Source: Denitrobaculum tricleocarpae
GTDB taxonomy: Bacteria > Pseudomonadota > Alphaproteobacteria > Kiloniellales > Kiloniellaceae
Direction: 5' to 3'
Assembly (NCBI RefSeq): GCF_007004665.1
Contig: NZ_ML660059.1
Coordinates: 124,001 to 188,000, forward strand
DNA length: 64,000 nt
Shown: positions 22,947-28,494 of the stretch, in pieces
Layout: every line of letters begins with the position of its first letter
How positions within the stretch are numbered: position 1 is the first letter of the stretch
Program-made: the position numbers and the translations under genes
The notes under the pieces: generated by a model
What the model saw: the letters and a program-made list of their open reading frames with translations, nothing else
Told to the model about the DNA's origin: nothing
Databases searched by the model: none

Positions 22947-23594
22947 CTAGAGGCTTTTGGCCTGTCGCACGAAAGCCCGAATCTTATCCGGGTTCTTCAC
23001 GCCGGGCCGGTCCTCGACGCCCGAGGAGACATCGAGCGCAGGTGCTCCTGAAAGCTCCACGGCACGGGCCAGGTTTTCCACGGTCAGGCCGCCGGCCAGC
23101 ATCCAGGGTTTTGACCAGCTTTTTCCCCTAAGATAGGTCCAGTCAAAGGAGACCGCATTGCCGCCGGGAAGCGGGTTTTCCAGATCGGCGGGGGGTGCCG
23201 CATCAAAGAGAATACGGTCCGAAACCTCCAGAAAGTCCTCGACCCGGGCAACATCCTCCGCGCCGCGGATCTTTATCACTTTCATAACCGGAACGCCGAA
23301 GCCAGTACGGATCGCTTCGACGCGCTCGACGGACTCACTCCCATGGAGCTGCAAGAGATCAAGGGACGCCGCGCGCAGCACCTCCTCAATGAAAGCATCC
23401 TCTGCGTCGACAAAAAGGCCCACCTTGACGGCCCGATCGCCGACCGGCCGCATCAATTCGCCCGCTAGCCCGGAGGTCACCGACCTCGGACTCGGCGGAA
23501 AGAAATTGACCGCGACGTAGTCGGCACCGGCATCCAGCGCGGCATCCATTGTCTCCGGCGTGGAGAGTCCGCAGATTTTGACTTCGATGCTCAT
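22947..23594 (-). CDS. trpF: Phosphoribosylanthranilate isomerase
   Basis: A 215-residue TrpF barrel with the N-terminal catalytic cysteine in KICGLSTPE, the LQLHGSE motif, and the C-terminal phosphate-binding segment ALDVSSGVEDRPGVKNPDKI. It catalyses the Amadori rearrangement in tryptophan synthesis. There are 193 bases to trpB. The ATG overlaps the stop of a possible 32-codon upstream frame. Confidence 0.95.
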   Translation of the reverse strand: MSIEVKICGLSTPETMDAALDAGADYVAVNFFPPSPRSVTSGLAGELMRPVGDRAVKVGLFVDAEDAFIEEVLRAASLDLLQLHGSESVERVEAIRTGFGVPVMKVIKIRGAEDVARVEDFLEVSDRILFDAAPPADLENPLPGGNAVSFDWTYLRGKSWSKPWMLAGGLTVENLARAVELSGAPALDVSSGVEDRPGVKNPDKIRAFVRQAKSL

Positions 23595-23689
23595 GCTGCG
23601 GTTTTAATCGGTGAAGGCAGCCCATGCACATGGTTTTTTAGCGGCTCAAGGCTGCCAAAATCACTTTTTGAAGCTAAAGTCCGGGTCAT
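23591..23689 (-). CDS. Possible short upstream ORF coupled to trpF
   Basis: An ATG at 23689 opens 32 codons (starting MTRTLASKSDFGSLEPLK) whose TGA overlaps the trpF ATG as ATGA. There is no tryptophan codon, so it is not a classical trp attenuator peptide, and no good Shine-Dalgarno is visible. The same stretch carries an inverted repeat GGCAGCC/GGCTGCC (23616-23622, 23650-23656). It may be chance; the coupling geometry is the only support. Confidence 0.22.
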   Translation of the reverse strand: MTRTLASKSDFGSLEPLKNHVHGLPSPIKTAA

Positions 23690-23850
23690 TAGCAGCAGGA
23701 ACTCAGAAAGCTAGGGTAGATTCCGGTATTGCGGCCGGTCATCATTCGAAGCGGAAACTCCCGCAAAAATTGAATGGCCGTGGTCAAAGGACTCAAACTC
23801 CACCGGTCGTCTGAGATTTCCGTAGCTCACAGTTGAATGGGAGAGTGTCT

Positions 23851-25359
23851 ATGCCACGTCGGGCGATCAGGCGGCTGATGAGTCTTTGCCTCGTTCTTAC
23901 GCTTACCGGCGTATTGGGATTTGGCGGTTTCGCCCTGGTCACGCAGTACTATTTCCAGGAGAGCGCACCTACCACATGGAGCAGGCTTCTGCAGCCGCAA
24001 CTGGAGTGGCAGAGGGAAGCGCGCCCGTCGCTCAAGCCAATTCTCGACATTCTGGCATACTTTATGGTCGAAACTGATCCTCGAGATCAATTTGGTGTCC
24101 TCAGTCGCTCCTCTGCCCCCGCACGACCGGAAGACTGGAACAATGACATACTCGGCCCTCAAACCCCGGTGGGAGCCTTCTCACGAAATGGCACCGAGAC
24201 TGTTTTTGTAACGACGGCCGAAGAGTTCAAAGCGGCCGTAAAGACAGCCCGTCCCGGAAACGTCATTCAACTGCAACCTGGCACTTACAGTTTTTCCGGA
24301 AAATCCATCGTGGCCGGCGTGCCGGGGACCGCCGGCCAACCGATCATCGTTCGGGCCGCAGAATTGGGAAGCGTTCAGTTAAACTTTTCGCTTCTGGAGG
24401 GCTTCCACGTCACCGCACCTTTCTGGATCTTCGAAAACCTAATGATCGACGGAGTGTGCGAAACGGATGCACGCTGCGAGCACGCCTTTCATATCGTTGG
24501 AGGCGCAGTCGGAACCATCGTTCGCAATAACTGGGTCACCAACTTCAACGCAGCCATCAAGGTCAACGGAACGGGAAATCAATTTCCGGACGACGGGCTT
24601 GTCGCGAGTAACGCATTTTTCAATGATCGCCCCAGGCAGACCTCCAATCCGGTTACCGTTCTCGACATCGTCGCCGCCAGCAATTGGGTGGTTCGGAAGA
24701 ATATCATTTCTGATTTTGCGAAAGCGGAAGGCGATCGAATCAGCTATGGCGCATTCTTTAAGGGCGCCGGAGAGAATAATGTTTTCGAACAAAACCTGGT
24801 GCAGTGCCAACAGCGTCATTACGGCGGAACCCGGATCGGATTTTCATTTGGCGGCGGCGGAACAACGCGTTCGGTCTGCCGTGACGGCGCCTGCCCCATA
24901 GAGCACCGCAATGGGATCGTCCGAAACAACATCATTATGAACTGCCCGAATGACGTGGGTATCTATGTAAACAAGAGTGCGAAAACGCTGATTCACAACA
25001 ATGCCCTCATCAATACGCGAGGCATCGACATCCGCTTCCCCGAGTCAGATGCTGTTATCGTAAATAATATACTGGACGGCAGAATTCTGGCCCGTGATGA
25101 TGCTAACCAATTGGCAAAAAACAATCTTCAGAGTGCGGTCGAAGCCGCGTTTCTGCAAAAGATCAGCTTCAGCTTCTACGCGGATCCACAAAACGGTGAT
25201 TTCCGGCTCGTCAATGCGGACGGCATATCGGGTTTTGGTGTTCCCTTAGCCAACGGAGGCCTGGATTTATGCGATCAGGCATTGAATTCAGAGCACCCGG
25301 ATATCGGGCCAGTACAGTACAGTCCGAACATGAGTTGCATTCCAGTAATCAGCCCGTAG
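23851..25359 (+). CDS. Membrane-anchored right-handed beta-helix protein
   Basis: A 502-residue protein. An N-terminal TM segment or uncleaved signal (about residues 8-32, after PRRAIRR) is followed by a periplasmic linker and then, from about residue 125, a parallel beta-helix. The helix entry (PGNVIQLQPGTYSFSG) resembles the first turns of PL6/chondroitinase-B-like lyases. Later turns carry Asn/Ile ladders (VRNNIIMNC, IHNNALINT, IVNNILDG). Cysteine pairs could form disulfides. The substrate is probably a polysaccharide, but I see no assured catalytic residues. ATG 23851 has GGGAGAG upstream. The VanZ-like gene follows after 65 bases. Confidence 0.75.
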   Translation: MPRRAIRRLMSLCLVLTLTGVLGFGGFALVTQYYFQESAPTTWSRLLQPQLEWQREARPSLKPILDILAYFMVETDPRDQFGVLSRSSAPARPEDWNNDILGPQTPVGAFSRNGTETVFVTTAEEFKAAVKTARPGNVIQLQPGTYSFSGKSIVAGVPGTAGQPIIVRAAELGSVQLNFSLLEGFHVTAPFWIFENLMIDGVCETDARCEHAFHIVGGAVGTIVRNNWVTNFNAAIKVNGTGNQFPDDGLVASNAFFNDRPRQTSNPVTVLDIVAASNWVVRKNIISDFAKAEGDRISYGAFFKGAGENNVFEQNLVQCQQRHYGGTRIGFSFGGGGTTRSVCRDGACPIEHRNGIVRNNIIMNCPNDVGIYVNKSAKTLIHNNALINTRGIDIRFPESDAVIVNNILDGRILARDDANQLAKNNLQSAVEAAFLQKISFSFYADPQNGDFRLVNADGISGFGVPLANGGLDLCDQALNSEHPDIGPVQYSPNMSCIPVISP

Positions 25360-25424
25360 TTTCCAACGCCACCGGAATCAGCCGCCGGAACCATTCGAGA
25401 GAGCTCCACGAGCGAAGTCTGTAG

Positions 25425-26681
25425 ATGAGAATCACATCGACAACAGGTCCACTCGACACCCTACGGTTAGTGCCCATGATCCTGATCGGATTTTGGCTCG
25501 CGTATCTTCTACTGACTCTTGTACCGAATGATGAACCACAAACGATCTCAGAGGCGATCACCCCCTACAGCGTTTCGGCGGGCTCAGCACCAGAGTTAAG
25601 TATAAAAAAAGCAACCTACCATGCGGTTGCCTGGTTGATTGTCGGCTATCTTCTTCAGGTTTGCCTGCCGGGTAAAAGGACGGGCCGGATGTTGCCCATT
25701 CTCTTTTTCGGCACCCTGGGATTAGAGATCTTTATTGCCAACAGCGCCTTGACATCCTCGAACGCCGTTGGCGGCATCGTTGCCATAGTGCTTCACTGGA
25801 CTGTCTTTACCCGCCTGAAACGGATTGAGTTATCGCTTCTGATCCTTCTGTTGGCGATCAGTGCCTGGATCGATCTCACACCCCTTATCCTTCGGTCCGA
25901 ATCCATCACCTTCAACTGGCTGCCGTTCCAAGGTGTCTTGGACGGATCCTTGTTCGTCAACGCGCAAGCGGCGGCCGGGAAGTTTTTCGCCTATGGCAGC
26001 ATGGTCTACCTGCTGCAGCGTATGGGTGCAGGCGACTGGATCAGCGTTCTCGCCCCGACCGGTTGGGTTGCCGGCATCGAGGTTGCCCAGACTTACGTCG
26101 TCAACCACACGCCGGAAAGCACCAATCCCCTGCTGGTCGTTTTCGCTGCGCTGGCCATTCTCGCCATCGAGGGTCTTAACGCAAAGCAATCCCGCCTTCA
26201 CACGCAGGCCGGGGAGACCGCGCATCGCGACGGTCACGACAGCAGCGGATATCAGAGCGGTTCCCACGCACGCGCCCATCCCGCCACAGACCACCAGCGC
26301 AAGCACCGTGCGGTGATCCAAAAGGTTAATCTGAACGCGGCTCAGGCGGAGCTTCTGGACCAGCTTGCAGAGAAAATGCAGGTCTCGGTCTCCGAAGCCA
26401 GCAGAAAGATCATCGGCAGCGCGATTGAAGAAGCAGGGCGGGAGACTCAGAACCCTGATGAACTGGTGCGCAGACTGCGGACCCTCTCCCTGCGGGGCGC
26501 AGCCGGTTTGATCACGCGCGAGAACGAGAACAATGGCTGGCTGGCGAGAGAAATCGAACTATACCCGGATCACTATGAAGTTCTGCAGGAGCTCTCGGCC
26601 GAATCCGGCAGCAGCATCTCGCGCGTGATCCGCCGCATCGTCGATCGCTTCTTCTCTCAATTGGAGTCCGAAACCGGCTGA
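25425..26681 (+). CDS. VanZ-like membrane protein fused to two ribbon-helix-helix-like repeats
   Basis: A 418-residue protein. Residues 1-255 hold about seven hydrophobic segments with VanZ-like landmarks (FNWLPFQGVLDGS and GIEVAQTYVV, the E..Q pair). A hydrophilic His/Gln/Ser-rich linker (about 256-297) leads to two similar C-terminal repeats, about 299-337 (VNLNAAQAELLDQLAEKM, then SVSEASRKIIGSAI) and 376-412 (IELYPDHYEVLQELSAES, then SISRVIRRIVDRFF). Each reads as short strand, helix, S-x-S turn, helix with basic residues, the pattern of RHH DNA-binding domains. Tandem RHH units could make an intramolecular dimer. The architecture is unfamiliar to me. Confidence 0.7.
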   Translation: MRITSTTGPLDTLRLVPMILIGFWLAYLLLTLVPNDEPQTISEAITPYSVSAGSAPELSIKKATYHAVAWLIVGYLLQVCLPGKRTGRMLPILFFGTLGLEIFIANSALTSSNAVGGIVAIVLHWTVFTRLKRIELSLLILLLAISAWIDLTPLILRSESITFNWLPFQGVLDGSLFVNAQAAAGKFFAYGSMVYLLQRMGAGDWISVLAPTGWVAGIEVAQTYVVNHTPESTNPLLVVFAALAILAIEGLNAKQSRLHTQAGETAHRDGHDSSGYQSGSHARAHPATDHQRKHRAVIQKVNLNAAQAELLDQLAEKMQVSVSEASRKIIGSAIEEAGRETQNPDELVRRLRTLSLRGAAGLITRENENNGWLAREIELYPDHYEVLQELSAESGSSISRVIRRIVDRFFSQLESETG

Positions 26682-26698
26682 AACCAAAGCGGTCCGCG

Positions 26699-27526
26699 TT
26701 ATTCCGGCACTGGTGGCGTCGCCGGGACCCAGCCGCTACAGGTTTTGAACGCAATCGACAGATACGAGACCACCGCAAGGCCGTTCAAAAGGCTAAAGAC
26801 AGTTACGAAAGCTTCGAGCCAGAAGGGGCGCGGCGTGATCTGCGCCTGACCGCTTGTCGCAAGCTGAACCACCGCATCCCAATTCACCAAAAAATAGAGC
26901 GCAAACGCCGGTAAGAAGCACAGAACGAAGCCCGCGACGAGGCGGAGCTCCTGGCCGCGCGACTGTTTCCAGGCATTCAATAGACCATAGTTCTCATCAA
27001 CGGCTATCGCGGGGAAAACAAATGCGAACTTCACGAGAAGCGCGATGTATACGATGGACACCAGGAACGCCATAACGGCAGGCGGCATGATCGTCGTCAG
27101 AAGAAGCACCGTGAGAAAGACCGCGATGATGACAATCGTCAATACCAGCAGGGCATTGGCAAAAAACCGCCAATGCCTGCGTCTGATCGCATAGAGAAAT
27201 CTTGGCCGGCCGTGTTCGGGCCCCAGCAAAGTCAGTCTGTGCCAGGCTACGTAGAGAAGGCTCATAGCAAAGGCCTGCACGGCGAAGGCCAGAAACAACA
27301 GGAAAAAGCCGGCCAGAGGATTCGATCGGCCCGAGCCGGCAAAAACGGCCAGGATACCGGTCGTGTGCAGCAGGAGATACCAGAGGAAATAGATCAAAAC
27401 CGGCAGAAAAACCGCCGCCGGAACAGCCCAAAGATTCGAAAACAGAAGCCGATAAGACTCTTTCACGCTCGCGATGATCGGCAGAGAAGTCACAGCCTCT
27501 TCAGGCGGAGTCGAAGAATGGGTCAT
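26699..27526 (-). CDS. Multi-pass membrane protein, paralogue of the next gene
   Basis: A 275-residue protein with about six hydrophobic segments. It shares with the gene at 27634-28494 the order of a short cytoplasmic N-terminus ending SVKESYRLLFSN, the motif LYVAWHRLTLLGPEHGRPRFLY, the motif FVFPAIAVDENYGLLNAWKQ, and LCFLPAFALYFL. It recalls membrane domains fused to some glycerophosphodiester phosphodiesterases, but I cannot assign a function. The gene runs convergent to the VanZ/RHH gene with a 17-base gap. Confidence 0.7.
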   Translation of the reverse strand: MTHSSTPPEEAVTSLPIIASVKESYRLLFSNLWAVPAAVFLPVLIYFLWYLLLHTTGILAVFAGSGRSNPLAGFFLLFLAFAVQAFAMSLLYVAWHRLTLLGPEHGRPRFLYAIRRRHWRFFANALLVLTIVIIAVFLTVLLLTTIMPPAVMAFLVSIVYIALLVKFAFVFPAIAVDENYGLLNAWKQSRGQELRLVAGFVLCFLPAFALYFLVNWDAVVQLATSGQAQITPRPFWLEAFVTVFSLLNGLAVVSYLSIAFKTCSGWVPATPPVPE

Positions 27527-27633
27527 ACAAGCCTATGCCTTGAGTCAACGACGACCCCGCAGTCCCGCGGGCATCATGCCGCAAAGTCGCATGCCCGGCA
27601 CAAGCAATCAACCGGACGCCTTCAGGTCGCAAG

Positions 27634-28494
27634 TCAGGAACTCTCACTCCCGGACCGCGCCTGCACCCAGCCGGACTGGCCCTGGAAAACGAAGGTGATG
27701 AAGGTGACGGAAACCAGACTGCTGTAGGATAGGACGAAAAGGTTCGCGGCCTCCAGCCATAGAGGTACGCCGCCGTAGCCTCTGATGAAGTCTGAGAGGA
27801 TCATGTTCATCGCCAGCAGCAAGAGCCCGCCAGGCAGGAAACACAACAAAAATCCGATGGCCAGAGGCCAGGTGATATGGGTGGTCTGGTGCCAGGAGTC
27901 GGCAATGCTGTAAGGCTCGTCCACTGCAATCGCAGGAAAAAGAAACGAGAGCCTGGCAAAGAGAACCACATATGCGGCCGGAAGCATCACGAGAAAGAGG
28001 TAGTGGAAAAGCAGGGCGATGGCCCCCAGCAGGCTTGCAAGAACAGCCAACACTATACTCGCCGCAATAATAGTGAACGCGACGGATACGAGACCGGCAA
28101 GAAGGCCGCCCGTCATGTAGCCGAAGTACTTCCAATGGCGTGTGCGCGGTGGATAGAGCCAGCGCGGTTGACCCTCGCTGCCCGCAAGCAGAATAAGCCT
28201 GTGCCAGGACACGAAAAGCAGTGATGCCGGAACAAAGACGACGAGAGTCAGGGCCACACCATTGACCGAGAAGCCCACGGTGTCCCGGCCACTCGCGCCG
28301 GTTTGCACTTCATCTGAGAACTCGAAGCCCCCGACATCGATGAAAAATGAGAGTATGAGATAGAGCAGGGCCGGCTGAAACAACACAAGAGGCAGGAAAG
28401 CTTTGTTTTCGAAGACAAATCTGTAGGACGCCCGAACCAGCACCAGGAGCGGGAACCTTGGCTTGACACTGGTGTTTTGCCCGCCATCCGTCAC
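27634..28494 (-). CDS. Multi-pass membrane protein, tandem paralogue
   Basis: A 286-residue protein with about six TM segments. It matches its neighbour at LFVSWHRLILLAGSEGQPRWLY, FLFPAIAVDEPYSIADSWHQ and GFLLCFLPGGLLLL. It clearly arose by tandem duplication. It follows pyrF's divergent neighbours with a 108-base gap to its paralogue. The conserved WHR and PAIAVDE segments face loops between TM helices and are the best candidates for a functional site. Function unknown. Confidence 0.7.
   Translation of the reverse strand: MTDGGQNTSVKPRFPLLVLVRASYRFVFENKAFLPLVLFQPALLYLILSFFIDVGGFEFSDEVQTGASGRDTVGFSVNGVALTLVVFVPASLLFVSWHRLILLAGSEGQPRWLYPPRTRHWKYFGYMTGGLLAGLVSVAFTIIAASIVLAVLASLLGAIALLFHYLFLVMLPAAYVVLFARLSFLFPAIAVDEPYSIADSWHQTTHITWPLAIGFLLCFLPGGLLLLAMNMILSDFIRGYGGVPLWLEAANLFVLSYSSLVSVTFITFVFQGQSGWVQARSGSESS

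Follow-up and report, generated by a model that had tools for sequence, protein, structure and literature searches.

Fusion gene and its RHH tail

The window analysed here is a 64,000-nucleotide stretch of Denitrobaculum tricleocarpae (contig NZ_ML660059.1, positions 124,001 to 188,000). It contains a gene whose product joins a VanZ-related membrane half to a tail of two ribbon-helix-helix (RHH) units. A one-gene fusion had been proposed in the initial annotation, and the frameshift check agrees with it: positions 25425-26681 (+) form a single open frame of 418 amino acids (aa). A frameshift or a separate tail gene is ruled out, the frame being single in the window and in tail-bearing relatives alike. 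Because an in-frame TAG lies immediately 5' of the ATG, no longer N-terminus is possible, and a missed upstream start was rejected on the same ground. The fusion is real and conserved within the genus. Its parts are as follows.

25422..25424, + strand: in-frame TAG abutting the ATG, read from the sequence
25425..26681, + strand: VanZ-like/tandem-RHH fusion gene, 418 aa; uninterrupted open reading frame with orthologues in 4/4 genus genomes, own included
25458..25823, + strand: membrane unit 2, residues 12-133; alignment with 10 relatives; without catalytic motif
25824..26192, + strand: membrane unit 3, residues 134-256, degenerate VanZ-like; alignment and sub-cut-off PF04892 in two relatives
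26193..26306, + strand: variable hydrophilic linker, residues 257-294; alignment and ratio of nonsynonymous to synonymous divergence (dN/dS)
26313..26438, + strand: RHH unit 1, residues 297-338, strand VIQKVNLN; Pfam RHH_1 and structure model
26454..26495, + strand: connecting helix between RHH units, residues 344-357; structure model
26541..26678, + strand: RHH unit 2, residues 373-418, strand LAREIELY; Pfam RHH_1 and structure model

The tail has an RHH fold by both profile and model, which bears out the tandem RHH domains of the initial annotation. Pfam RHH_1 (PF01402; cut-off 20.5 bits) matches two stretches of the whole protein (E 2.1e-6, 27.9 bits) and also the tail alone (E 7.4e-8, 32.5 bits). 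In the model, unit 1 consists of a strand (297-303) and two helices (305-318, 322-338); unit 2 repeats this layout (strand 373-379, helices 381-394 and 398-417) after an extra helix at 344-357. Averaged per ten residues, model confidence (pLDDT) is 79-88 over residues 301-350 and 77-86 over 371-410; it is lower for 351-370 (66 and 41) and 411-418 (66). When segments of the two units picked by us were aligned, the local score was 37 against a shuffle mean of 19.9, and one of 1000 shuffles reached it. Relaxosome chains and single-chain Arc align with the tail model across both units, and single-chain RHH proteins are among the top fold matches. The tail is thus likely a single-chain RHH pseudo-dimer of TraY-like build, in line with the intramolecular dimer suggested originally.

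Among 61 genomes of the order, matches were found in six (seven loci): all four of the genus (the three others at 58-70 % identity), a Pelagibius metagenome-assembled genome (MAG; G021, two loci) and one further genome. The tail is present at five of the seven loci, the exceptions being L006 and L009. In G021 it has diverged to 28 % identity and has no Pfam RHH match. At class level the family profile matches 7/385 genomes, namely our own, five with full-length proteins without tail and one partial. Since most class-level matches are tailless, the membrane protein is more widely spread than the RHH tail. The search for the same fusion, as called for in the initial annotation, thus succeeded in the genus and in G021, with the tail diverged in the latter and missing from the five full-length class-level matches other than our own. 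The tail alone as query matched only our own genome of the 385, and a five-row tail profile matched 13 (E<=0.01, own included, others weak). Two of the non-own profile matches were inspected: L029 reads as chemoreceptor-like, and G183, the best of them (L026 1444-1920, - strand; E 3.6e-5), has an RHH2-like C-terminal end in a frame that leaves the locus. In the phylum search, the C-termini at 10 of 14 non-own loci were read by eye (L056, L059, L060 and L061 lay outside this check) and none was tail-like. Plasmids gave no match to the whole protein and phages none to the tail; viral contigs gave none either, as none of 33 pattern matches was confirmed. Searching RHH_1 in 23 family genomes (E<=0.001 per genome) returned five matches, the window gene not among them, too few for a residue comparison.

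One of the Pelagibius loci (L005 1087-4152, equal to L008 5584-8649) encodes in a single frame of 1021 aa a VanZ-type part, the diverged tail, a stretch of hydrophobic residues and a phosphoesterase domain of the PHP type (Pfam PHP, E 4.7e-7). Its tail aligns to the RHH tail without a Pfam RHH match.

Membrane half without the first VanZ unit

The membrane half of the window protein has no VanZ match in Pfam, and no PF04892 match was found in its genome (G000) at E<=0.001; among 14 control genomes, 10 gave such a match. An additional N-terminal unit of ~130 residues is found in G021 and the rest of the genus. It scores as VanZ above the cut-off in 5/5 proteins (E 1.5e-9 to 2.6e-13) and carries the VanZ-1 motifs given in the Lipocone paper (Burroughs, Nicastro and Aravind, eLife 2025, PMC12419801), helix-2 N and helix-4 D...N-type. 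Of three relatives in which the membrane part shared with the window was compared with PF04892, two gave sub-cut-off matches (E 1.2e-4 and 1.9e-4) and one gave E 0.93. Homology to relatives therefore supports a VanZ-related membrane half. The VanZ domain of the initial annotation stands in this sense, as kinship through relatives; the canonical VanZ unit itself is gone from the window and degenerate units are left. A tblastn search with the G003 unit detected no credible remnant of it (best E 0.13). The ancestral form, represented by the three other genus genomes and one Pelagibius, would comprise some three VanZ/Lipocone-type units of four helices each, with the VanZ-1 motifs intact in the first.

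An alignment of the window protein with 10 relatives (11 rows; G289 at L041, G304 at L044, partial, and G682 at L054 left out) specifies the loss. Unit-1 motifs (helix-2 N, Q/E..Q, R, D...N) are kept in 10/10 relatives; the window lacks the unit bearing both VanZ-1 motifs. Its unit 3 retains ExxQ, has GK in place of EK (EK in 7/10 relatives) and N in place of the D of EITDP (D in 9/10; G002 also lacks it). Because of these changes the window copy is unlikely to perform Lipocone chemistry. If functional, it probably works by binding, and a role as sensor or anchor looks likelier for it than one as enzyme. Unit 2 has no Pfam match or profile support; its position and helix pattern are the sole grounds for counting it as VanZ-like. 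An internal repeat among the three units was not supported by hhalign (probabilities 0.3-2.7 %; shallow alignments). Hydropathy scan gives 5 segments in the window protein versus 9-11 in relatives. The membrane model, of low confidence, has about eight membrane-length helices and would place both protein ends on one side. Fold matches of the membrane part (TTYH and others) were set aside at model pLDDT <50.

Mosaic structure and neighbouring genes

23833..25359, + strand: beta-helix gene, pectate/alginate-lyase-like; fold matches, Pfam at or near cut-off
23641..26264, no strand: replaced or introgressed block, approximate ends; identity and codon divergence, weak support from GC content

The fusion gene is a mosaic, with a break in divergence at about 26265 that the initial annotation overlooked. 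Compared with G003, the closest relative, the window is 82.8 % identical at 23401-23640 and 86.7 % at 25750-27700; between 23640 and 25750 the sole collinear match is 53 bases long (25623-25675, 73.6 %). Synonymous divergence (dS) from G003 ranges from 0.64 to saturated for residues 1-280 and from 0.12 to 0.31 for residues 281-418, each value being rough as pieces are 20-60 codons long. Seven flanking genes, accD excluded, have dS 0.23-0.52. Judged from these values, the RHH tail appears no more diverged than flanking genes, and upstream of the break synonymous sites differ too. The order is reversed between G003 and G002 (membrane half about 84 % identical, tail 60 %). Where G001 and G002 share an invariant column, the window departs from it far more often than G003 does in units 2 and 3 (68/204 against 12/204), but only slightly more often in the tail (19/75 against 15/75). 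In the linker, no column of 257-292 is invariant in G001-G003, and dN/dS versus G003 is 0.81.

The simplest reading is that recombination from near the trpF start to the linker (about 26265) imported the beta-helix gene and, with it, a divergent membrane half that lacks VanZ unit 1; the native tail would have stayed in frame. GC content is 0.48-0.57 in the block, mostly 0.58-0.65 in upstream trp genes and 0.54-0.60 in downstream genes; it lends weak support to foreign DNA because of the latter. In the membrane-part tree the window sits on a long branch and still adjoins G003, weakly (43.8/48), so that no donor clade was identified.

The beta-helix gene lies 65 nt upstream of the fusion gene, at the site of the relatives' VanZ unit 1. 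Its product, a right-handed beta-helix with an N-terminal hydrophobic stretch read by eye, resembles pectate/alginate lyases (fold matches 1ru4, E 2.7e-6, and 6kfn, E 2.5e-5). The three other genomes of the genus gave no match to it at E<=1e-8. Two family genomes, G016 and G021, have homologues at 52 %, and the 10-12 kb read beside these showed no VanZ-like gene. The G016 locus reads as an exopolysaccharide-type cluster, with a second beta-helix gene adjacent. Among the extracellular domains that VanZ or Skillet-3 proteins carry as fusions, PMC12419801 lists beta-helix domains. Downstream, 26699-27526 and 27634-28494 (both - strand) encode two similar-looking hydrophobic proteins, convergent with the fusion gene; G003 has both, and neither gave a Pfam match at E<=0.1.

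Possible function and comparison with known systems

We favour, at close to even confidence, the reading that the fusion protein is a membrane-tethered regulator. It would be an inner-membrane protein whose tail, probably cytoplasmic, forms the single-chain pseudo-dimer. VanZ-type units would bind a polyprenyl-phosphate-linked polysaccharide precursor, which relatives probably cleave or exchange as well. Precursor occupancy may alter what the tethered tail can bind, the target probably being regulatory DNA of its own gene or of envelope-polysaccharide genes; the regulator would be linked to envelope polysaccharide. In the window the enzyme-like unit would have been lost, most simply in the recombination that also brought the lyase-like beta-helix gene. 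With the native tail kept in frame, the window copy would bind or sense but not catalyse. A more elaborate version seems rather unlikely to us: natural recombination swapped the membrane input module, catalytic Lipocone unit out and polysaccharide-lyase-like partner in, with the TraY-like, single-chain and DNA-binding output kept, and so turned a dead lipid-head-group enzyme into a one-component transcription sensor.

Putative DNA binding is the weak point of the tethered-regulator reading. The initial annotation considered a membrane-tethered DNA-binding protein, which is reasonable because single-chain RHH proteins are among the top fold matches; it overlooked acidic residues in RHH2. The strands read K-V-N-L-N and E-I-E-L-Y. 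At the positions which, from Arc, we take to face DNA, unit 1 has K/N/N and unit 2 (LAREIELY) E/E/Y. These acidic residues weigh against the reading, as does the acidic tail as a whole (isoelectric point about 5.0 in the genus). So do the tail columns invariant in G001 and G002, where the window differs at 19/75 and G003 at 15/75. Counts at columns invariant in G001-G003 (1/21, 1/15 and 2/24 changed) flatter the tail because G003 is close kin, and the count without G003 is fairer. The tandem RHH might accordingly be a protein-interaction or oligomerisation module, serving to bind a partner or to bring copies of the membrane protein together, a lesser though serious possibility. Besides the acidity, this is favoured by operator searches that found none and by the restricted access to DNA that membrane tethering would impose. 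However, K/R-V-N-L-N of strand 1 is preserved genus-wide, and the tail's profile matches cover many DNA-binding families. Two of the closest fold matches, TraY and AvtR, are single-chain DNA binders.

As for an operator, the perfect inverted repeat AATGCGCTAGCATT lies ~100 nt upstream of the VanZ-RHH start in G003 (L002 983-996) and at the same place in G002. Either genome has a single occurrence of the exact sequence, and the genome of the window has none. With one mismatch, a second match appears in G002, one in G001 and none in G000; the backward control pattern has one match each in G000 and G001. The repeat is possibly an operator or promoter part, but repeat searches of the genus genomes established no operator for the fusion gene. 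An Rfam search gave no match.

It is improbable, in our view, that the fusion is a decaying copy, its membrane half drifting after VanZ unit loss and the protein without own function in this strain. The missing unit 1 with its motifs and the replaced EK and EITDP residues of unit 3 would fit, and so would the 68/204 columns of units 2 and 3 invariant in G001 and G002 at which the window differs (G003 12/204). Yet the frame is intact through 418 codons, and dN/dS versus G003 is 0.23 for residues 111-258 and 0.17 for the tail, a pattern indicating that the tail is conserved by purifying selection. Relaxed selection is also insufficient, because synonymous sites diverge as well. A reverse direction, in which the RHH tail regulates the membrane enzyme, draws on the intact motifs of the relatives' unit 1 and on the cyclic-nucleotide-binding fusion that PMC12419801 reads as regulating VanZ. 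It is inapplicable to the window copy, which kept the tail while the enzyme-like unit is gone, and we consider it very improbable.

That combination, TraY-like tail kept and enzyme-motif unit gone, is what is special about the fusion. One RHH tail is common to relatives with and without the enzyme-like unit; signalling would therefore be separable from catalysis. If the tail binds DNA, the protein is a membrane-tethered single-chain RHH regulator. PutA, a membrane-associated enzyme with an RHH domain, is not an integral membrane protein.

The tail's likeness to F-plasmid TraY (relaxosome entries 9f0x, 9f0y and others), described as single-chain RHH in PMC12117103, is one of fold only; no TraY sequence match turned up. 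Unlike the tail of this membrane protein, TraY works at oriT in the relaxosome. AvtR (4hv0), an archaeal virus regulator described likewise in PMC5569661, is among the closest folds, small, viral and without membrane part; both matches are weak alone.

The view that no VanZ/RHH fusion had been described is outdated: PMC12419801 mentions VanZ-1/RHH fusions in general terms and proposes VanZ as allosteric regulator of transcription. This was the only mention located, other titles and abstracts being judged not to describe one. The paper proposes the head groups of lipid-linked polysaccharide precursors as the site of action of VanZ-1 proteins. With the fusions described there, the window protein shares a VanZ-type membrane part (here by homology to relatives) and RHH in one chain, as well as the proposal that transcription is coupled to the state of lipid-linked polysaccharide. 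It differs in having two RHH units, with about three VanZ-type units in relatives, and in lacking the unit with VanZ-1 motifs. A VanZ-1 duplication in which the C-terminal copy (VanZ-i) is inactive is described in the same source. Relatives similarly have an intact-motif unit followed by inactive-looking copies; unlike in that duplication, there are more than two units, the proteins are alphaproteobacterial, no four-gene operon was seen, and the window has only inactive-looking copies. The window protein thus fits the VanZ-1/RHH class as a variant, not as something unprecedented, and lends itself to testing the proposed link between VanZ/Lipocone proteins and transcription.
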